The notes under the pieces: model-generated
What the model was told of the DNA's origin: nothing
Seen by the model: only the letters and a program-made list of their open reading frames with translations
Database searches by the model: none
Shown: piece by piece, positions 1-9,317 of the stretch
Layout: each line of letters starts with the position of its first letter
Position numbering within the stretch: the stretch's first letter is position 1
Assembly (NCBI GenBank): GCA_903861125.1
Contig: CAIOTF010000042.1
Location: 248,001-312,000, forward strand
Origin: an uncultured Ignavibacteriota bacterium
GTDB lineage: Bacteria; Bacteroidota; Ignavibacteria; UBA10030; UBA8401
Length of the DNA: 64,000 nucleotides
Reading direction: 5' to 3'
Position numbers and translations under genes: made by a program

Positions 1-613
1 TTAGATATGCATAGACGGATGCACCGACTCCCTGTGTACCCCAATAGGAAAGTTTATATGCGCTTGTCTGTGCCGTACTGATAGCGGCTATATTTGGATC
101 ACGCACATTGTCGAATACACGCTGTAGCCCAAAAACAGCATTCCATGTCGCATCGGTGGGATGAATATCAACATTCGCCAGAAGCGTCTGCAAATTCACC
201 TGTCCGCCATTAAATCCTCCCCCCTTATTTCCTCCAACTCCATATGCGGCATCTCCCCATGTCATATCGATCTTAAATAGACTACGGAATGTCGCAACCC
301 CGTCAAGAATTTGGGGCGAATAGATGAACATTGGCACAAACCGCTGTTCAACATATGAAGCAGTTTTCCCCGTGTTCGTGGTATTTTGTCCGAACAATCG
401 TCCGATGATCTGTCCTTGTAGCAATTCATTGGTCGGCGAGATGTTCGATGCCGTGGCGCGGTTGAACCAATAACCGATGAACCTGAACTCCGGAGTTTTG
501 GGATCGGGTATTCTCTTCGTGCGGTCAAAGAATGATGTGGTATCTTGTCCAAATGCGGCGACCGTTGCAAAAGTGAAGAGAACAAGTCGAAGAAGAAATT
601 TTTTCGTTTTCAT
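1..613 (-). CDS. Outer-membrane/porin-like secreted protein, C-terminus cut by window edge
   Basis: Reading leftward from the ATG at 613 the frame stays open for 204 codons to the window edge, so the C-terminal part is missing. The start encodes a clear signal peptide (MKTKKFLLRLVLFTFATVAA, then FGQ), with Gln as the likely first mature residue, common in Bacteroidota-type exported proteins. The mature part is rich in Gly, Asn, aromatic residues and short alternating stretches, which suggests a beta-barrel of the porin type, but no family motif is certain. A GGAAGAAG ribosome site precedes the ATG. A terminator-like hairpin lies only 11 nt upstream, so the gene is probably transcribed through it from the genes at right. 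Substrate is unknown. Confidence 0.7.
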   Translation of the reverse strand, partial: MKTKKFLLRLVLFTFATVAAFGQDTTSFFDRTKRIPDPKTPEFRFIGYWFNRATASNISPTNELLQGQIIGRLFGQNTTNTGKTASYVEQRFVPMFIYSPQILDGVATFRSLFKIDMTWGDAAYGVGGNKGGGFNGGQVNLQTLLANVDIHPTDATWNAVFGLQRVFDNVRDPNIAAISTAQTSAYKLSYWGTQGVGASVYAYL

Positions 614-623
614 GGCTTCTTCC

Positions 624-661
624 TAAAAAAGCCCGTGAGATCACAAAGACCTCACAGGCTT
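624..661 (-). terminator. Intrinsic terminator after the 673-1206 lipoprotein gene
   Basis: On the minus strand an 11-bp stem (AAGCCTGTGAG at 661-651 with CTCACGGGCTT at 639-629, one G-U pair) is followed by six T. The wobble pairs only on the minus-strand transcript, which fixes the direction. It lies directly against the ribosome site of the next gene. Confidence 0.7.
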
Positions 662-672
662 GAATGAATGAA

Positions 673-1206
673 TTATTGCTTTACATATTTTTGGATATAG
701 ATCGGGTATTTTGTTGTTCCAACCGAGGTGCTGCCGAAACCTGCTGCCGGCGTTGGTGCCGTTACACCGAGGTTCGGTGAGGTCTGAATGATCTCATATG
801 TCATATTCGTACCGTTGATTGCATAGATTCCGGTGGAAGTGACCACTGTCGGCGTTGCTTGACTTGCAACGATGGTAAAGATCTTTGCGCTTTTCGTTGT
901 CGAGGTAGAAACCGTATCGCTGTAGGTTGATTCAGTATACGTGATCGTACCGGTGAACGTGGTTTGCACATTCGCACTGTCAACTTGAACTACGGTGTAC
1001 GATTTGTTCTCATTAAACGTTGCCGTGATCTTCTTTACTTTGAACGGTGCAACGCGCAGGCCGTACGGAACATTTGTTCCTTCGGAAACCCACGTTGCAA
1101 CGATAGGATCTTTAGGTGTTACCACTGCTGTTGCGGTATCGTCTTTTTTACAGCCGATAACTGTCAACAGTGCCAAAGTAACAAGAAGCATGAATTGTTT
1201 TTTCAT
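673..1206 (-). CDS. Putative lipoprotein, unknown function
   Basis: A 177-residue protein beginning MKKQFMLLVTLALLTVIGC, a lipoprotein signal with the lipidated Cys at position 19, followed by KKDD as often seen in Bacteroidota surface lipoproteins. The rest is rich in Thr, Val and Ser and looks like a small all-beta domain; a stretch near residues 35-50 (WVSEGTNVPYG) recalls lipocalin-like lipoproteins, but the match is weak. A strong AAGGAGG ribosome site sits just before the ATG. It lies 42 bp downstream of the acyl-CoA ligase gene on the same strand and may be the last gene of that operon before the terminator. Function is not recognised. Confidence 0.7.
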   Translation of the reverse strand: MKKQFMLLVTLALLTVIGCKKDDTATAVVTPKDPIVATWVSEGTNVPYGLRVAPFKVKKITATFNENKSYTVVQVDSANVQTTFTGTITYTESTYSDTVSTSTTKSAKIFTIVASQATPTVVTSTGIYAINGTNMTYEIIQTSPNLGVTAPTPAAGFGSTSVGTTKYPIYIQKYVKQ

Positions 1207-1248
1207 AAATCCTCCTTAAGGAATTTATTGTGTTGGAAGTGTGGTGAA

Positions 1249-2802
1249 TTAGGTTGAATGATGCATCTCTTTTAGTGCCCGTTTAAGAATTTTACCGCTA
1301 TGCCCTTTCGGCAGTTCGCCGATAAATTCAAAATATTTTGGAACCTTATATTTGGCGACTTTTCCGGTGCAATATTGTCGAAGTTCATCGTCGGAAACCG
1401 TCATATTTTTTTTCAAGACTACAAAAGCTTTACCAACTTCTCCCCATTTTTCATCCGGAACTCCCACAACGGCAACTTCGGCAATTGACGGATGAGAATA
1501 CAGAAAGTGTTCTATCTCGGCGGGGTACACATTTTCGGCTCCGCTGATGAACATATCCTTTTTACGGTCGACAACATAGAAATATCCTTCTTCATCCTTT
1601 CGCACAATATCTCCGGTATGAAACCAACCGTTGACGATCGTTTCGGCTGTGGCTTTTGCATTGTTCCAATACCCGGGAGTCACAACAGGGGACTTAAACA
1701 GCAGTTCACCCGGCTGGTTTATTCCGACTTCCGCACCGGAATCATCGACAATCTTTGTGTCAATATAGAAATTCGGAAATCCGATCGATCCTTTTTTTCG
1801 GATAGCATCTTCTTCCGGCAGCGAGAAACAGTTCGGACCGACTTCGGTAAGACCGAAACCTTGGCGAATCGGCACTCCTTTGTGCTGCCACAATTCAATT
1901 TGCGGGATCGGCATCGGTTCGCCGCCAACGATCGCAAAACGGACCGACGCAAACGTTGTCTGTGCAAATATTTTCGTTTCGCTCATCATCTTCATCATCG
2001 TCGGCACACCGAACAGGATCGTCACTTTTTCTTTATCGCACAATTCAATAATCCGTTCAGCATTGAATGAATTCAAAAAAATGATCTTCGCACCGTGATG
2101 AATGAACGGTGTCGTCAGCACATGCCATCCCCCCGTATGAAAGAACGGCGAGAATGTCAGCGACACATCATTACTGGTAATGTTCAACCGTAATTCGGTG
2201 TTGATGGAATTCCAGAAGATCATTTTATTGGTGATCAATGCCCCTTTCGGCTTTCCCGTAGTGCCCGAAGTGTAAAGAATCATACAAGGATCTTCAAAAT
2301 TCACGCCGATATCAATCGGTCCCGATGGTAGTGAATCATCAGCAATAATTGTCGTCAAACTTTTACCGGATGTGGATTGTATGGACAGACGTTGTTGCGG
2401 CAAAACCGATGAATGCATTTCGTTCAGAACCGGTATATACTGTTCTTGAACAAACAGCAATTTTGCCGAACAATCGCTTAAAATAAATTCTATCTCACCT
2501 GCAGCCAATCGAAAATTCACCGGCACAAGAATGGCACCGGTCTGTTGTACTGCAAAATAAAGGAATAGATATTCAATGCAGTTCTGTGATAATACGGCAA
2601 CACGGTCTCCACGACTGATCGAATAATCATTGAGAAGCACGCGCGAAATACGATTTGTAATGTTGAACATTTCTGCATAGGAATATTCTCTGCCGCTCGC
2701 ATCATCTTTCACAGCAATTTTTGCCGGTGAATATTGCGCCCACCGTTCAAGCCATTGCGTTCTAATCCGTTCGTCCGATATGTCAGCAGCTCTATTCAAC
2801 AC
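1249..2802 (-). CDS. Acyl-CoA synthetase (AMP-forming ligase)
   Basis: A 517-residue ANL-superfamily ligase that should activate a carboxylic acid to its CoA thioester through an acyl-adenylate. Visible motifs are the phosphate-binding loop YTSGTTGKPKG (about residues 177-187), GFGLTEVGP, GWFHTGDI, the hinge region around DRKKDMFISGAENVYP, and the C-terminal GHSGKILKR with the likely catalytic Lys at 504. Length is normal for medium/long-chain or aromatic acyl-CoA ligases; the substrate cannot be told. It follows the MFS gene by 12 bp, so ligase and carrier are probably co-transcribed, suggesting uptake followed by activation of an acid, which is inference. Confidence 0.9.
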   Translation of the reverse strand: MLNRAADISDERIRTQWLERWAQYSPAKIAVKDDASGREYSYAEMFNITNRISRVLLNDYSISRGDRVAVLSQNCIEYLFLYFAVQQTGAILVPVNFRLAAGEIEFILSDCSAKLLFVQEQYIPVLNEMHSSVLPQQRLSIQSTSGKSLTTIIADDSLPSGPIDIGVNFEDPCMILYTSGTTGKPKGALITNKMIFWNSINTELRLNITSNDVSLTFSPFFHTGGWHVLTTPFIHHGAKIIFLNSFNAERIIELCDKEKVTILFGVPTMMKMMSETKIFAQTTFASVRFAIVGGEPMPIPQIELWQHKGVPIRQGFGLTEVGPNCFSLPEEDAIRKKGSIGFPNFYIDTKIVDDSGAEVGINQPGELLFKSPVVTPGYWNNAKATAETIVNGWFHTGDIVRKDEEGYFYVVDRKKDMFISGAENVYPAEIEHFLYSHPSIAEVAVVGVPDEKWGEVGKAFVVLKKNMTVSDDELRQYCTGKVAKYKVPKYFEFIGELPKGHSGKILKRALKEMHHST

Positions 2803-2814
2803 AAATAATCCAGA

Positions 2815-4041
2815 TTAAACATTTTCGATGTAATTGATATCTTTTCCATATGTCTCTTTCATAAAGAACAGAGCAATAAATGCAATCACAAAAACCACAC
2901 CGCCTATCAGCAACGCTCCGTTAATCAATCCGAAATCATGCCGGATCGAATTCAGCCATAACGACATCGGTACGACCATGGAACGGACAAAATTCGGCAC
3001 CGAGGTGGCAACAGTCGCGCGAATATTGGTCCCAAAATTTTCGGCGGCCATTGTAAGAAAAACCGTCCAATACCCCTGCCCCAGACCAACAACAAAAATC
3101 ACCATCATGAATGTGTCTGCATTTGCATTGTACATGTTCAGCGTAATTACCGTCAGCACTGCCATTGCAATAAAACAGAACAATACCACTATCTTACGGC
3201 TTTTTACCATTTCGCTTATGATTCCGCTCATTCCGCTGCCGAGAGCAAGTCCGATCGCCTGCCACTTCAATGTCTCCGCCGCAGAGATCACCCTGGAAAG
3301 ATTCAGTGCTGCACCAACTTCCGGAGAGAATGTGATAATAATTCCGGAAACATACCAAATCGGTACCCCAACGGCGATCACAGCCAAAAATTTCAACAAC
3401 AAGGTCTTAGACCGAAAGAACATCAGGATGTCGCCACGCGTATGCGATAATTTTTTCTGTTCCACAAACATATCCGATTCGCGGAGTGCTACTAACCGTA
3501 TTCCCAAAACGATGATGCCCATACCTCCGCCGACAAAATATGCAACACGCCAATCAAATGAACTGCCGACAAACGATGCTGTTAATGCTCCAACCAACCC
3601 TAGAAATGAAATAACTGTTGTTCCGTATCCCCGATAGTTCTTCGGAAGTATCTCGGAAACCAGCGTAATGCCCGCTCCAAGTTCACCGGCCAGTCCGAGC
3701 CCTGCAATGAACCGTAGCAGCGCATAACTGTTGATGTCCGTAACAAATCCATTGGCAATGTTTGCGGCGGAGTACATCGTGATCGTGGAAATCAACGCCA
3801 ACCGTCTGCCGAACTTGTCTCCAATGATTCCCCATGCAACACCGCCAATCAACATACCGGCAAATTGTAGATTGAGCAGAAGAATTCCCTTGGAGATTAA
3901 ATCATCGCCGGTGATGCCGATTGCTTTTAAACTTGCAATGCGCACAACACCGAAAAGTACGATGTCATACAAGTCAACGAAATATCCCAACGCAGCAGCA
4001 ACTACTGCAATGATAAGTCCGGTATTTTTTGAAGTTGTCAT
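2815..4041 (-). CDS. Major facilitator superfamily transporter (MHS/sialate-like branch)
   Basis: A 408-residue, roughly 12-helix membrane protein. It shows the MFS loop 2-3 signature (GDKFGRRLALI) and, in helix 4-5, RFIAGLGLAGELGAGITLVSE, which resembles metabolite:proton symporters. An acidic pair lies in helix 1 (GYFVDLYDIVLFG). It probably moves an organic acid or similar small molecule across the inner membrane by proton coupling. It is placed 12 bp from the ligase and 12 bp from the KAS III-like gene, all on the same strand. Substrate is unknown; the neighbours point to a carboxylic acid. Confidence 0.85.
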   Translation of the reverse strand: MTTSKNTGLIIAVVAAALGYFVDLYDIVLFGVVRIASLKAIGITGDDLISKGILLLNLQFAGMLIGGVAWGIIGDKFGRRLALISTITMYSAANIANGFVTDINSYALLRFIAGLGLAGELGAGITLVSEILPKNYRGYGTTVISFLGLVGALTASFVGSSFDWRVAYFVGGGMGIIVLGIRLVALRESDMFVEQKKLSHTRGDILMFFRSKTLLLKFLAVIAVGVPIWYVSGIIITFSPEVGAALNLSRVISAAETLKWQAIGLALGSGMSGIISEMVKSRKIVVLFCFIAMAVLTVITLNMYNANADTFMMVIFVVGLGQGYWTVFLTMAAENFGTNIRATVATSVPNFVRSMVVPMSLWLNSIRHDFGLINGALLIGGVVFVIAFIALFFMKETYGKDINYIENV

Positions 4042-4053
4042 GGTATAGTGACT

Positions 4054-5052
4054 TTATGTGTTATAGGCCCACCGGATCGCAGAAACAGCCATAGCCATTC
4101 CTCCGCCCGAACCAACAAGGAATACGAGATCGTTTTTCTTTAGCGTGTGCTTCACCACAGCATCATCCATAGCCATTGCAATGGCGGCGCTTCCCGTATA
4201 TCCGTACTTGTTCATTACATTATGCGATTTGTCATGCGGAAGGGAAAGCGTGTCAAGCGTTTGATTGATGCTGTTGATATTGATCTGGGTAAAGAAAAAT
4301 TTATCGATCGCTGAAACCGGCTGCTGGATCTTCAGTGCCACTTCATTGATGAGTTTCGGCCAATATGTTGCATTTGTTTCTAACGGAATTTTTTTTGCAA
4401 ACCGCAATAAATGATCTTTGTTCTCGATAGCCTCATGCGTCATTTTAATTGCAGTTCCCCCTGCATAGATCCCCATGTAATCGTGATACTGCCCGTCGGT
4501 AAGTAATTTTGTATGAAGTACGCCTGATTCATCGTTTGACGGAGCCAGTATGGCAGCACCCGCACCATCAGCAAAGAGTGTTGCTATCTTCTTTTCAGAA
4601 TAATCGAGATACCGGCTCATCAGATACGCACCGATTACGAGAACATATTTATATTGCTCATCGCTTACAATAAATTTCGATCCTACATCAACCGCCGTAA
4701 CGAATCCCGCACATGCCGTATTGATATCAAAAGTCCCGGCGTTGACTGCACCGAGTTTATACTGCACGACCGATGCTGTCGATGGTGAGATATAATCCGG
4801 TGTATCAGTCGATACTATGATCAAATTCAGGTCCGACGCTTTAAGATTAGCTGCCGCCAATGCCTTTTTCGCCGCTTCGACCACAAGATCCGACGTAACC
4901 TGTGAATCCGATGCATACCGGCGTTCATAAATGTTTCGGTTTGTTTTTAAGAACGAATCAACATCTTCATTATAGAGTTCATTGAAATATGCGTTCGGAA
5001 CGATACGTTCCGGCGCATAATGACCTGTTGCAATAATTTTCGCTCTTCTCAT
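4054..5052 (-). CDS. 3-oxoacyl-ACP synthase III (FabH)-like protein with altered catalytic triad
   Basis: A 332-residue thiolase-fold protein of KAS III length. The nucleophile region is intact (NTACAGF, Cys114), as are DTPDYISPSTASVVQ and the C-terminal GSGGGMAMAVSAIRW. FabH normally also needs a His in HQAN and an Asn in GNTS. Here the aligned motifs read TQIN (Thr255) and GYTGSAA (Tyr285), so two of the three catalytic residues are replaced. It may therefore act as an acyltransferase, a thioester hydrolase or an unusual condensing enzyme rather than a classic decarboxylating synthase. It lies between the FabG-like gene and the MFS gene. Family assignment is firm; reaction is not. Confidence 0.85.
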   Translation of the reverse strand: MRRAKIIATGHYAPERIVPNAYFNELYNEDVDSFLKTNRNIYERRYASDSQVTSDLVVEAAKKALAAANLKASDLNLIIVSTDTPDYISPSTASVVQYKLGAVNAGTFDINTACAGFVTAVDVGSKFIVSDEQYKYVLVIGAYLMSRYLDYSEKKIATLFADGAGAAILAPSNDESGVLHTKLLTDGQYHDYMGIYAGGTAIKMTHEAIENKDHLLRFAKKIPLETNATYWPKLINEVALKIQQPVSAIDKFFFTQININSINQTLDTLSLPHDKSHNVMNKYGYTGSAAIAMAMDDAVVKHTLKKNDLVFLVGSGGGMAMAVSAIRWAYNT

Positions 5053-5138
5053 ATTAACTACTTTATCTACGGATGCACCGCATCTGATTGCTGAATATTT
5101 ACATCGTCAATTTTGTCTTTAAACAATTTTTTATACTT

Positions 5139-5879
5139 CTACCACACCATACCGCCATCAACGCTTAACACAATACCGGAGACATAGGCAGATTCATCTG
5201 ATGAAAGAAACAGATAAGCGTTGGCAATATCGATCGGTTCTCCCAGGCGCTGCAGCGGAGTCCGTTCTTTAATATTTGCGATAACTTTTTCCGGAACTGT
5301 CGCGATCATATCGGTGGCAATGAAACCCGGTGCAACGGCATTAACGGTAATTCCTTTTCTTCCGAATTCACGCGCCCATACTTTTGTCATGCCGATCACT
5401 CCGGCTTTTGTTGCAACGTAATTGGTTTGACCAAAATTTCCGTAAAGACCGACAACACTTGAAGTATTCACAATCTTTCCATAACCTTTTTCCACCATGT
5501 ACGGGGTGACTGCTTTCGTCATATTAAATACCCCCTTCAAATTCACACTGATCACCTGATCAAATTGTTCTTCCGTCATCTTTGCCAGAGTTGCATCACG
5601 CGTAATTCCTGCATTATTGACGAGAATATGGATCGCACCGAATTTTTCAATTGCGGTTTTTGCCATTTGCTCACACTCCATAAAACTGGCAACATTTACT
5701 TTAATTGCAATTGCTTTCCCGCCGTTTGCATTGATCTCGGTAGCAGTAGTCTGGGCATGCACCTCGTTGATATCTGCTGCTATGATATTCGCTCCTTCAC
5801 GGGCAAAAAGATGAGCTGTAGTTTTTCCTATTCCTTGACCTGCACCGGTAATAATGGCAACTTTATTTTGCAGTCTCAT
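5139..5879 (-). CDS. 3-oxoacyl-ACP/acetoacetyl-CoA reductase-type SDR (FabG-like)
   Basis: A 246-residue short-chain dehydrogenase/reductase. It has the cofactor loop TGAGQGIG (residues 11-18), NNAG (88-91), Asn113 in SVNLKG, Ser141, and YxxxK as Tyr154/Lys158, then the FabG-like end with SSDESAYVSGIVLSVDGG. It most likely reduces a 3-oxoacyl thioester to the 3-hydroxy form with NAD(P)H. PhaB/acetoacetyl-CoA reductases look the same at this level. It starts 14 bp after the regulator gene, and the KAS III-like gene follows after 86 bp. Since it sits outside a fatty-acid synthesis cluster, it is probably a pathway-specific copy. Confidence 0.88.
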   Translation of the reverse strand: MRLQNKVAIITGAGQGIGKTTAHLFAREGANIIAADINEVHAQTTATEINANGGKAIAIKVNVASFMECEQMAKTAIEKFGAIHILVNNAGITRDATLAKMTEEQFDQVISVNLKGVFNMTKAVTPYMVEKGYGKIVNTSSVVGLYGNFGQTNYVATKAGVIGMTKVWAREFGRKGITVNAVAPGFIATDMIATVPEKVIANIKERTPLQRLGEPIDIANAYLFLSSDESAYVSGIVLSVDGGMVW

Positions 5880-5893
5880 ATATACTCCTGTTC

Positions 5894-6385
5894 TTACTTT
5901 TTGTAAAGCGTTTTTTTCTTTTTACGCCACACGGTATCAAACTCTTTGTAGAAATCGTTCATCTGTTCGTAAAAGATCTCCATCATGGCAAGATTCTCTT
6001 TCCACCGTTTCTGATCGGGTGATCTGTCTCCGCTCAACTGATGAAGGAATGATTCTGCCAAAGAAATATTTTTCCGGACAGTTCCCATATTAAAGTGGAA
6101 CACACTGATAAATATCTCGCTGTCAGCGATATAGTAGTCCTTACGACTGTCTGCACCATTGCTTTTTTTTATGAAACCAAGAGAGTTGAGTCGGCGCGTT
6201 GCTTCGGAGATGAGGCCTTTACTGCGGTTGAGAAGGCGGCATATTTCGCCGAGTGACATTGCTTCCGGTGTGGTAAGAAGAAGACCGATGATCAATCCGT
6301 TAAGGCGTTTGAATCCGTACGATGCATACAGATTTCCGTATTCTTCAACGAACAATTTTTGCTGCGATGTTAGCTTGTGTATCAT
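5894..6385 (-). CDS. MarR/GbsR-type winged-helix transcriptional regulator
   Basis: A 163-residue protein with a winged helix in the N-terminal half (about residues 27-95, including SLGEICRLLNRSKGLISEATRRL and the wing SNGADSRKDYY) and a helical, probably dimer-forming C-terminal half ending in a basic tail. The spacing resembles GbsR-like members of the MarR superfamily. As the first gene of the minus-strand run down to 673 it is the likely local regulator of that cassette. The ligand may be the acid or acyl-CoA handled by the ligase, as for other MarR-type regulators of CoA-ligase operons; this is inference. Confidence 0.8.
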   Translation of the reverse strand: MIHKLTSQQKLFVEEYGNLYASYGFKRLNGLIIGLLLTTPEAMSLGEICRLLNRSKGLISEATRRLNSLGFIKKSNGADSRKDYYIADSEIFISVFHFNMGTVRKNISLAESFLHQLSGDRSPDQKRWKENLAMMEIFYEQMNDFYKEFDTVWRKKKKTLYKK

Positions 6386-6462
6386 CCCATACCCTCAATG
6401 TTCTGAATGTTCTGAAAATAGTAAACATTCAAAACTATAAAAGCAAGGATATTTTAAAAACT

Positions 6463-6495
6463 AAAACGCCGAGGACATTTTCGCCTCGGCGTTTT
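6463..6495 (-). terminator. Intrinsic terminator after nrdJ
   Basis: A perfect 12-bp stem (AAAACGCCGAGG at 6463-6474 with CCTCGGCGTTTT at 6484-6495) and a 9-nt loop, followed on the minus strand by TTTTAGTTTTTAAAA. It lies 84 bp after the nrdJ stop and separates it from the regulator gene at 6385. Confidence 0.75.
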
Positions 6496-6578
6496 GTATT
6501 TCTTTGAATCATGAACGGCTAATATTCAATGATACTTATTCATTGTGCCATCCCAGGATACAACGGGATTTCATTCAG

Positions 6579-9317
6579 TTAGGAGCATCCCGATGTGCTG
6601 CCGCATTGTGTGCATTTATAGCATGCACCGGAACGGATCATTAAACTCCCGCATTCATGACACGGAGGCGCATCGGCTTGTGTCTGGAACACGTATTTTT
6701 CACCCCGCTCAACAGCACTTACCGTCTCTACCCTTGCTTCAACTCTCGGCGCTGTTTCCAACACCGGTGTTTCCGATACCATGGACATCGGCTGATCATC
6801 CTTCGGCAGGAATTTCAATCCTAACCAGCGGAAGATGTAATCACAGATCGATTTAGCGATCGGGATATCCGGATTCTGCGTGAAACCTGACGGTTCAAAC
6901 CGCATGTGACTGAATTTATCAACTAAAACTTTGATTGGCACACCATATTGCAGTGCAATCGAGATCGATGTCGCAAATGCATCCATCATTCCTGAAAGTG
7001 TTGACCCTTCCTTGGACATCGTGATGAATACTTCTCCCGGCATGCCGTCTTCATACATCCCTGCGGTGATATATCCTTCATGTCCGGCAATACTGAACTT
7101 GTGAGTATACGAAGCACGTTCGTTCGGTAAGCGGCGTCTTGCAAGACGCTGATCAATTTTCTTTTCCTCTTTCTTCTTGTCGCCGTCCAGCGATGTTGAC
7201 AGCGGTTGTGTCCGTTTGCAACCGTCACGGTATACTGCAACGGCCTTCAATCCCAATTTCCACGATTCAACATATGCCTGCATAATGTCTTCCGGGGTGA
7301 TATCGGTCGGCATATTCACTGTTTTGGAAATCGCACCGGAAAGGAACGGCTGCGTAGCACCCATCATTTTAATATGTCCCATATATTGAATGGAACGCTT
7401 TCCTTTTGATGGCTTAAAGGCGCAATCAAAGACTGATAGATGTTCTTCCTTCAGAAAAGGCGCACCTTCAATCGTATCATTCTTATCAATGAAGGAGATG
7501 ATATGCTCGATCGCTTCACTGTCATACCCCAATTTGCGGAGTGCTTCGGGAACCGTTTGGTTCACGATCTTCATCATTCCGCCACCGACTAATTTTTTAT
7601 ATTTAACAAGTGCAATATCCGGCTCTACACCCGTCGTATCACAATCCATCATGAAACCGATCGTCCCGGTCGGCGCAAGAACTGTCGCCTGTCCGTTTCG
7701 GTAGCCGTGAACTTTTCCTAATTCAATCGCCTCTTTCCACGATGTGCTGGATGCTTCCCATAATTCATTCGGAACATAATCTTTTGAAATTTTATCTGCG
7801 TGGATGCTGTGCTTATTCATAACGCCAAGCATCGGTTCACGGTTGATCGCATATCCTTTGAACGGTCCGGAATGTTCAGAGATTCGCGACGACTGGGCAT
7901 ACGCTTCTCCGCACATCAACGAAGTGATTGCTGCGGCATACTCGCGGCCGGAATCGGAATCATACGCAAGACCGCGCGCCATTAACAGTGCACCAAGGTT
8001 TGCATAACCCAAACCAAGCGGACGATAATCGTGGCTGTTCTTTTCGATCGCCGGTGTCGGATAACTTGCATTGTCAACAAAAATTTCCTGTGCGGTGATT
8101 GTTAGTCCTACTGCATATTTGAAAGCATCAACATCAAACTCGCCGTTCTCCGTCCTAAATTTCATCAGATTAAGCGACGCAAGATTACATGCTGAATCAT
8201 CCAGAAACATGTATTCGCTGCATGGGTTCGATGCATTGATACGCGCAGTATTGGAAGATGTATGCCATGCATTCACTGTTGTATCGAATTGCATACCCGG
8301 ATCGCCGCATAACCATGCTGCTTCCGCAATTTGCCGCATAAGATCGCGCGCACGATATGTGTCGACAACTTTGCCGCCTTTAATGGATTTGGTCTGCCAT
8401 TCTTTGTCTTCCAGAACAGCTTTCATAAAATCATCCGTAACACGGACAGAGTGATTTGCATTTTGATATGAAACAGAATCATACGCTCCGCCCGGCACAT
8501 TAAATCCTCCGTTATATCCGGAGTCGATCAACGCCCACGCCTTTTTCTCTTCCACCGCTTTACAGTTGATGAACTCAACAACATCCGGATGATCCGCATT
8601 CAAGATCACCATTTTCGCTGCACGTCTTGTCTTGCCGCCCGACTTGATCACACCGGCAAATGCATCAAAACCTTTCATAAATGATACCGGACCGGATGCA
8701 GTTCCTCCGCCGGCGAGCGTTTCTTTTGAAGAACGAAGCGTAGAAAGGTTCGATCCTGTTCCGGAACCGAATTTAAAAAGCATACCTTCTGTGCGTGCAA
8801 GACCAAGGATAGATTCCATTGAATCTTGAACGGAATTAATGAAACAGGCTGAACATTGCGGTTTTTCTTCAATCCCAACATTGAACCAAACAGGACTATT
8901 GAATGCCATATATTGGTTCACAAGAATGTAGCAGAGTTCGTTGTAGAAAATGACTGCATCTTGGTCTGTGGCAAAATAATTCTGCTTGCGACCCCAGTTT
9001 ACCGTCGATTTCGCTACACGGTCAACAATCTGCCGTACGCTAGTTTCACGGTCAGGCGTGTTAATCAGTCCATGGAAATATTTTGAGACAACAACGTTGG
9101 TAGCGGTCATCGACCACGATTTCGGGATCTCGACGTTCTTCTGTTCGAATATCTTTTCACCCTTTTCGTTCGTAATTACCGCAGATCTCAATTCCCATTC
9201 AATCTGATCGAATGGATGAACGCCGGCCTGAGTGAAAAAACGACGGAACGTTAGCCCTTGAGCCCCCGATTTCTTTGCCGATGCGGTTTCTTGTACCGCT
9301 ACTTTGGTGTCACTCAT
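6579..9317 (-). CDS. nrdJ: Vitamin B12-dependent (class II) ribonucleoside-diphosphate reductase
   Basis: A 912-residue enzyme that makes deoxyribonucleotides from ribonucleotides using adenosylcobalamin, with no separate radical subunit. The catalytic barrel is recognisable from PVWFNVG, CFINSVQDSMESI, LFKFGSGTGSNLS, NPCSEYMFLDDSACNLASL and APTGTIGFMMDCDTTG. A C-terminal TSCPD-type region begins near ERASYTHKFSIAGHEGYI, and the tail has a zinc-ribbon-like CHECG/CYKCTQCG pattern. Length is typical of the large bacterial form. A GGAGAG ribosome site precedes the ATG. It is monocistronic, with a terminator after it and a long gene-free region before it. Needing B12, it links to the BtuB-like receptor at the far end of the window. 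Confidence 0.95.
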   Translation of the reverse strand: MSDTKVAVQETASAKKSGAQGLTFRRFFTQAGVHPFDQIEWELRSAVITNEKGEKIFEQKNVEIPKSWSMTATNVVVSKYFHGLINTPDRETSVRQIVDRVAKSTVNWGRKQNYFATDQDAVIFYNELCYILVNQYMAFNSPVWFNVGIEEKPQCSACFINSVQDSMESILGLARTEGMLFKFGSGTGSNLSTLRSSKETLAGGGTASGPVSFMKGFDAFAGVIKSGGKTRRAAKMVILNADHPDVVEFINCKAVEEKKAWALIDSGYNGGFNVPGGAYDSVSYQNANHSVRVTDDFMKAVLEDKEWQTKSIKGGKVVDTYRARDLMRQIAEAAWLCGDPGMQFDTTVNAWHTSSNTARINASNPCSEYMFLDDSACNLASLNLMKFRTENGEFDVDAFKYAVGLTITAQEIFVDNASYPTPAIEKNSHDYRPLGLGYANLGALLMARGLAYDSDSGREYAAAITSLMCGEAYAQSSRISEHSGPFKGYAINREPMLGVMNKHSIHADKISKDYVPNELWEASSTSWKEAIELGKVHGYRNGQATVLAPTGTIGFMMDCDTTGVEPDIALVKYKKLVGGGMMKIVNQTVPEALRKLGYDSEAIEHIISFIDKNDTIEGAPFLKEEHLSVFDCAFKPSKGKRSIQYMGHIKMMGATQPFLSGAISKTVNMPTDITPEDIMQAYVESWKLGLKAVAVYRDGCKRTQPLSTSLDGDKKKEEKKIDQRLARRRLPNERASYTHKFSIAGHEGYITAGMYEDGMPGEVFITMSKEGSTLSGMMDAFATSISIALQYGVPIKVLVDKFSHMRFEPSGFTQNPDIPIAKSICDYIFRWLGLKFLPKDDQPMSMVSETPVLETAPRVEARVETVSAVERGEKYVFQTQADAPPCHECGSLMIRSGACYKCTQCGSTSGCS

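Follow-up and report, generated by a model that had tools for sequence, protein, structure and literature searches.

What can an enzyme with the KAS III fold do once it has lost the His and Asn of the FabH active site? The question is raised by one gene in the window, by which we mean the whole 64,000-nucleotide stretch of DNA from an uncultured Ignavibacteriota bacterium analysed here. The first-pass annotation took the loss of both residues, with the Cys and the rest of the fold retained, to suggest a changed reaction, and offered acyl transfer, hydrolysis or condensation without decarboxylation as examples.

The gene, its motifs and its family

The gene is a minus-strand open reading frame encoding 332 amino acids, with its ATG at 5052 and its stop at 4054; across the same interval the opposite (plus) strand is full of stops. 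The features of interest within it are these:

4054..5052, minus strand: KAS III-like enzyme of the T/Y subfamily (Cys114, Asp83, Thr255, Tyr285, Asn227, Trp231), from the open reading frame, domains, alignment and predicted structure
4711..4713, minus strand: codon of Cys114, the nucleophile position, from the sequence and 62 of 62 alignment rows
4804..4806, minus strand: codon of Asp83, aligned with the catalytic Glu of HMG-CoA synthase, from the alignment
4279..4290, minus strand: TQIN, residues 255-258, at the canonical HQAN position, from the sequence and alignment
4192..4203, minus strand: GYTG, residues 284-287, at the canonical GNTS position, from the sequence and alignment

The protein thus reads N111-T-A-C114-A-G-F, T255-Q-I-N258 and G284-Y-T-G287-S-A-A. 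The Cys of NTACAGF is intact, as first noted, and identical in all 62 rows of our alignment, A1; equally, the GNTS motif does read GYTGSAA, the catalytic Asn being replaced by Tyr285 in every row. The reading of HQAN as TQIN is right too, with the refinement that the His, changed to Thr255, is all that this motif has lost: Gln256 stays and the structural Asn258 is kept in 54 of the 62 rows.

Both KAS III Pfam domains score above cut-off (PF08545, 87.7 bits; PF08541, 70.2 bits) and the AlphaFold model has a KAS III fold (mean pLDDT 94.5, pTM 0.93), which the top rows of the fold search, FabH and BioZ, match from end to end (Z 46-47, rmsd 1.4-2.0). The matches listed in PDB sequence and fold searches were FabH-, BioZ- or PqsD-like or more distant KAS III-type chains, with no close relative among them. 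Could this then be an ordinary decarboxylating KAS III in which other residues do the job? The fold would allow it, the match to Neisseria meningitidis FabH having a Z-score of 47.4 over 316 aligned residues (rmsd 1.8). Against this, the protein reaches none of the curated NCBIfam models (TIGR00747, 225.8 against a cut-off of 292.1 bits; PRK09352, 238 against 249), and with seven other T/Y proteins failing likewise, none of the eight tested attains the FabH or KAS3 cut-offs. Moreover, a canonical FabH with HQAN and GNTT (locus L002) sits in the genome's own fab cluster of fabF, acpP, fabG, fabD, fabH and plsX, names that we assigned from gene order and sequences, so that fatty-acid initiation is covered elsewhere in the genome. 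Given also that the Arg contacting ACP is mostly lost (see below), we regard ordinary KAS III activity as highly improbable. A third KAS III, 27% identical and bearing HQAN and GNTG, lies elsewhere in the genome (L003, C13:26321-27301), which leaves the window protein as the odd one of the three.

A scan of GTDB species genomes returned 62 loci, one of which, L065, has HQAN and is thus not of the T/Y type. Hosts of the other 61 are mostly Bdellovibrionota, along with Bacteroidota/Ignavibacteria, Anaerolineae/Chloroflexi, Bipolaricaulota and Acidobacteriota-like genomes. When 100 relatives were searched, own genome included, 13 held a match at 1e-60. A1 comprises the window protein, 56 of the 62 scan loci, four loci from the search of relatives and a second copy in L016; L006 (N letters), L048 (truncated), L056-L058 (near-copies of L055) and L065 (HQAN) were omitted. 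Run over 395 Bacteroidota genomes, the A1 profile scored at least 429.8 bits at one place in each of 56 genomes, the next match falling to 272.4 bits, where ordinary FabH lies. A further 29 loci were taken from this search, of which one, L077, was already in A1.

Ten residues are invariant in all 62 rows of A1, namely D83, C114, Y143, M145, N227, W231, T255, Q256, Y285 and G287, and all ten hold in the 29 further loci except for a single Ser at T255 (28/29). With HMG-CoA synthase as the root of a 76-sequence tree, all 62 T/Y rows fall into a single clade (support 0.953), to which PRK06840-type proteins are sister (support 0.938). The loss of His and Asn is a family trait and not a one-off; the first-pass observation holds, and more strongly than it was put, and conservation across relatives excludes a pseudogene or sequencing error as the cause of the odd motifs. 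We found no known subfamily combining this motif with ordinary KAS III activity, an observation that would have told against a changed reaction, and no paper among those listed in the open-licence literature on the motif or on a FabH-like thiolase. The single annotated T/Y record examined is named ketoacyl-ACP synthase III. The second copy in L016, a Bdellovibrio MAG, is a divergent T/Y protein (2265-3329), 33% identical to the window protein and encoded directly after a CoA-transferase.

Candidate replacement residues and known relatives

On whether a nearby His and Asn might still serve the site, the alignment gives a divided answer. There is no conserved His in A1 and the 29 further loci to replace the lost one: H190 was rejected as a stand-in, being present in 59 of 62 rows of A1 but in only 10 of the 29 further loci, as was H277 (60/62 but only 22/29). 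An invariant Asn is present, however: Asn227, like the invariant Trp231, maps to a position of the FabH tunnel, the two FabH counterparts being Ala216 and Leu220 (E. coli numbering). In the excerpted text of one docking report, residues 216 and 220 are among those touching ligands docked in the site of E. coli FabH (PMC6897290).

A further invariant residue is Asp83, whose column holds Glu in 5/5 archaeal-type HMG-CoA synthases and 3/3 PRK06840 rows but V, V, V, V, S and F in six HQAN-type rows. In the excerpt available of the PhlACB structure paper, Cys and Glu are the key residues of this enzyme class, with the Glu at PhlA position 83 (PMC6392133). Taken together, the alignment columns make the T/Y site look rewired rather than dead: Cys is joined by a new acid, and the former places of His and Asn are taken by Tyr, Thr and a new Asn.

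The position of FabH Arg249, which we take to be an ACP contact, has Arg in only five of the 61 T/Y rows with a letter there. The near-absence of this Arg suggests that the substrates are CoA rather than ACP thioesters. This would suit an acyltransferase or thioesterase as well, in which Cys114 would take an acyl group from CoA and hand it to an alcohol, an amine or water, C-C chemistry playing no part, as would the disappearance of both FabH enolate-holding residues while the Cys is invariant. Plain acyl transfer, though, would not need an invariant acid in the HMG-CoA synthase Glu column, and the steady SDR partner described below, which would make 3-oxo thioesters, fits C-C cleavage better; on balance we think this explanation unlikely.

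Comparison with characterized enzymes helps to place the family. With FabH/KAS III (TIGR00747, PF08545 plus PF08541) it shares the whole-length fold and the N-terminal Cys, but it has Thr for His244, Tyr for Asn274, the extra Asp83, few ACP-contact Arg residues and an operon that is not fab. Archaeal-type HMG-CoA synthase (TIGR00748; the window protein scores 29.2 against a cut-off of 353.35 bits) likewise has Cys and an acid in the Glu column, the T/Y acid being Asp rather than Glu and only a putative general base, but it keeps the His and Asn (FHxPN, GNTY) where T/Y proteins have Thr and Tyr. BioZ, the condensing enzyme of biotin synthesis that makes 3-oxopimeloyl-ACP, is level with FabH as a close fold (Z 46.8, 324 residues, rmsd 1.6), but at 25% identity. 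Thiolases (PF00108/PF02803) and the SCP-x thiolase-like aldolases have the superfamily fold and the chemistry proposed below in common with the family, but the match to Thiolase_N is sub-threshold (25 against 26.4 bits) and none to Thiolase_C is listed. In the text seen of the OleA report, a Glu117-Pro pair is essential (PMC7064751); the T/Y proteins have Ser (54) or Thr (8) in what we assign as the equivalent of the Glu117 column in all 62 rows, before an invariant Pro90.

The sister PRK06840/NF005308 proteins have an acid in the column of Asp83, but differ in that their Asn site reads GH and their His site carries His (2/3 rows) or Leu. Neither the window protein (143.6 bits) nor seven other T/Y proteins (114.1-177.4) reach the NF005308 cut-off of 315 bits. 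Three T/Y gene runs also contain PRK06840-type genes (L090, 7316-8335; L091, 7671-8690; L093, 12673-13719); their sites are odd too, with GH for GN and LH or LL for PH, and the L090 and L091 proteins score over the NF005308 cut-off.

The T/Y enzyme is best regarded as a variant member of the KAS III/thiolase superfamily. FabH and HMG-CoA synthase do not suit as names, because in each case it lacks the His/Asn pair and stays below the model cut-off, and neither does OleA, whose Glu117-Pro it lacks. A precedent for catabolic enzymes of the thiolase fold with changed catalytic residues is given by Sal and Ltp2, which, according to the excerpt available, carry out steroid side-chain retro-aldol cleavage with Tyr plus Cys or a second Tyr (PMC12329534). 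It supports the plausibility of a similar departure here, not its identity. By analogy, Tyr285 might act as the base in a retro-aldol cleavage of 3-hydroxyacyl-CoA, given that re-used thiolase sites work with Tyr in both Sal and Ltp2, that Sal forms a complex with a DUF35 domain (PMC12329534, same excerpt), and that SCP-x and DUF35-type genes accompany some T/Y members. The equivalence of the Tyr residues is an assumed analogy, however, and a 3-oxo substrate would better suit both the invariant nucleophilic Cys and the SDR that accompanies the enzyme, making retro-aldol chemistry very unlikely in our estimation.

The operon and its neighbours

In its own genome the gene is part of a minus-strand series running, in order, GbsR-like regulator, SDR, KAS, MFS transporter, acyl-CoA synthetase, small lipoprotein, outer-membrane barrel and lipoprotein alpha/beta-hydrolase:

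5894..6385, minus strand: GbsR/MarR-like transcription regulator, adjoining the T/Y gene in 22 of the 29 further Bacteroidota loci
5139..5879, minus strand: FabG-like SDR whose beta2 ends in an acidic residue, Asp36, and which is read as NAD-type, from model matches and alignment
2815..4041, minus strand: MFS transporter, its closest subfamily model being aromatic acid/H+ symporters, below cut-off
1249..2802, minus strand: AMP-forming acyl-CoA synthetase (PF00501, PF13193)
673..1206, minus strand: lipoprotein-like protein of unassigned function, conserved in the operon, with no Pfam match
1..613, minus strand: outer-membrane barrel-like protein of 523 aa, starting at 613 and running off the window
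L095 8089-9057, outside the window: lipoprotein alpha/beta-hydrolase of 323 aa, following the barrel

A scan of 500-6700 for promoters and terminators showed no excess over shuffled sequence (8 against 11.9 and 7 against 6.1), and a carnitine/choline link through the GbsR-like regulator was dropped as too weak (37.5 against 218 bits). The small lipoprotein and the outer-membrane protein of around 520 residues travel with the operon; the L090 barrel has a sub-threshold match to alginate export.

The partners recur widely. Of the 61 T/Y loci, many of them on contigs that end close by, 48 have an SDR nearby (at least 40% identity), 43 an acyl-CoA synthetase and 40 an alpha/beta-hydrolase, and 25 of the 29 further loci have an SDR within 1.5 kb. 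Transporter, synthetase, KAS and hydrolase recur in the own genome and five other Bacteroidota stretches of some 19 kb each; among those five, synthetase, KAS and hydrolase are found in all, the SDR in four (not L133) and a Na+ symporter in four (not L134). No acyl-CoA dehydrogenase/hydratase pair was noted in these six stretches, whose reading frames are only partly identified; among all the stretches read, the exceptions are a MaoC protein (L094) and a MaoC-like match (L059). Two loci without a detected synthetase, L016 and L053, have a CoA-transferase near the T/Y gene. The ten Acidobacteriota-like loci have neither synthetase nor SDR at the 40% threshold, their partners instead being a LIV importer and SCP-x.

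NAD-dependent SDRs characteristically end beta2 with Asp or Glu, and the operon SDR has Asp there in 55 and Glu in four of 59 readable rows, seven of these being weaker, 29-32% identical SDRs from Acidobacteriota-like loci. The FabG of the own fab cluster, in contrast, has the NADP-type SR...TYR pattern. In one MAG (L010, 3014-3764) the operon SDR is split into two reading frames by a frameshift or an assembly error.

Importers, CoA activation and esterases together mean that the context points to breakdown. The operon nevertheless has four superfamilies in common with the oleABCD cluster, so a forward, non-decarboxylative condensation of two acyl-CoAs in a hydrocarbon or beta-lactone pathway must be weighed, in which SDR, ligase and hydrolase would play the OleD, OleC and OleB roles. 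The Ser or Thr in place of the essential Glu117 argues against this, as do an SDR that passes a FabG model, an own-operon hydrolase that is a lipoprotein, outer- and inner-membrane transport genes in the operon and LIV-type importers or Na+ symporters at other T/Y loci. An OleABCD-like role is accordingly improbable.

Some loci are built differently. In L080 (9179-15177) SDR, T/Y KAS, CoA-transferase, SCP-x-like thiolase, Zn-ribbon OB-fold protein and hydrolase lie in a row, with a thiolase/DUF35/KAS trio reminiscent of the archaeal and Phl complexes. An annotated Chloroflexota plasmid record has, directly downstream, a CoA-transferase, an SCP-x-like thiolase, an OB-fold protein, an alpha/beta-hydrolase and a LIV-type importer. 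Might the T/Y protein then be a partner subunit without catalytic activity of its own, as PhlA is within PhlACB? At some loci an SCP-x thiolase is indeed encoded beside it and, in L080 and L093, an OB-fold/DUF35-type protein too, completing the trio of the archaeal thiolase/HMG-CoA synthase complex. Yet Cys114, Asp83, Asn227 and Tyr285 are invariant, whereas PhlA, in the excerpt cited above, lost both Cys and Glu (PMC6392133), and most loci are without such partners, SCP-x being near the T/Y gene in only eight of 61. A dead subunit therefore seems a long shot.

Proposed reaction and its bearing on annotation

With a synthetase, an oxidising SDR and a KAS-fold enzyme present, and a dehydrogenase/hydratase pair not noted in the stretches read, the simplest pathway would lead from a preformed 3-hydroxy acid to 3-oxoacyl-CoA, which a final C-C cleavage would then have to split. 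For that step the KAS III-like enzyme is our candidate. The reading to which we incline, tentatively, is that it may well be an acyl-CoA enzyme of the FabH fold working in breakdown, by a thiolase-like (retro-Claisen) cleavage. The exported lipoprotein esterase would free a 3-hydroxy acid from esters, which would enter through the barrel in the outer membrane and be taken up by the MFS (or Na+) transporter; the synthetase would form 3-hydroxyacyl-CoA and the NAD-type SDR would oxidise it to 3-oxoacyl-CoA. Cys114 would then attack the 3-oxo carbon, with acetyl-CoA (or a homologue) leaving, and the acyl group would pass from Cys114 to CoA. Asp83 might do the acid-base work, as Glu does in HMG-CoA synthase, while Tyr285, Thr255 and Asn227 might hold the enolate instead of His244 and Asn274. 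Gene content, conservation, fold and alignment columns are observed, whereas we infer the direction, the substrate and the residue roles. PHB-derived or other 3-hydroxy acids would fit as substrates.

That the reaction has changed, as the first-pass annotation suggested, is well supported by the invariant loss of both residues, the mostly lost Arg, the separate clade, the catabolic-type operon and the FabH kept elsewhere. The particular reactions it gave as examples were only possibilities; the context favours the reverse direction, C-C cleavage of 3-oxoacyl-CoA, which it did not name.

Several considerations weigh against cleavage. FabH and thiolase chemistry depend on His for the oxyanion hole, and we know of no measured example lacking both His and Asn. 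In addition, a classical thiolase is present in all 15 genomes tested and lies within the same gene run in L090 and L091, and the operons of L080, L092 and L093 include an SCP-x thiolase, with a DUF35-type partner in L080 and L093. With thiolases available elsewhere in genome or operon, the T/Y enzyme need not be the one that cleaves. The different set of partners at the ten Acidobacteriota-like loci likewise counts against the model. The 15 of 15 result also led us to discard the idea that it fills in for a missing thiolase. An internal PHB cycle was discarded as the reason for the operon, since PhaC was found in none of the 15 genomes (the control matched only in Caulobacter).

Bolder, and in our judgement possible though rather doubtful, is the proposal that these proteins represent an undescribed C-C-cleaving class on the FabH fold, using Cys-Asp in the manner of HMG-CoA synthase with Tyr, Thr and a transplanted Asn and no His/Asn pair. 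They would provide the thiolase step for a compact and widespread locus devoted to the use of hydroxy-acid esters, found in Bacteroidota, Bdellovibrionota, Chloroflexota and Bipolaricaulota.

As matters stand, T/Y members are liable to annotation as enzymes of fatty-acid synthesis. If they are catabolic, a pathway is being misread in many genomes, one named Bdellovibrio bacteriovorus strain included. Should the proposal prove true, the His/Asn pair, usually held indispensable for KAS III C-C chemistry, would be replaceable by another set of residues, and the family would offer a clean natural test of those needed in Claisen and retro-Claisen reactions.
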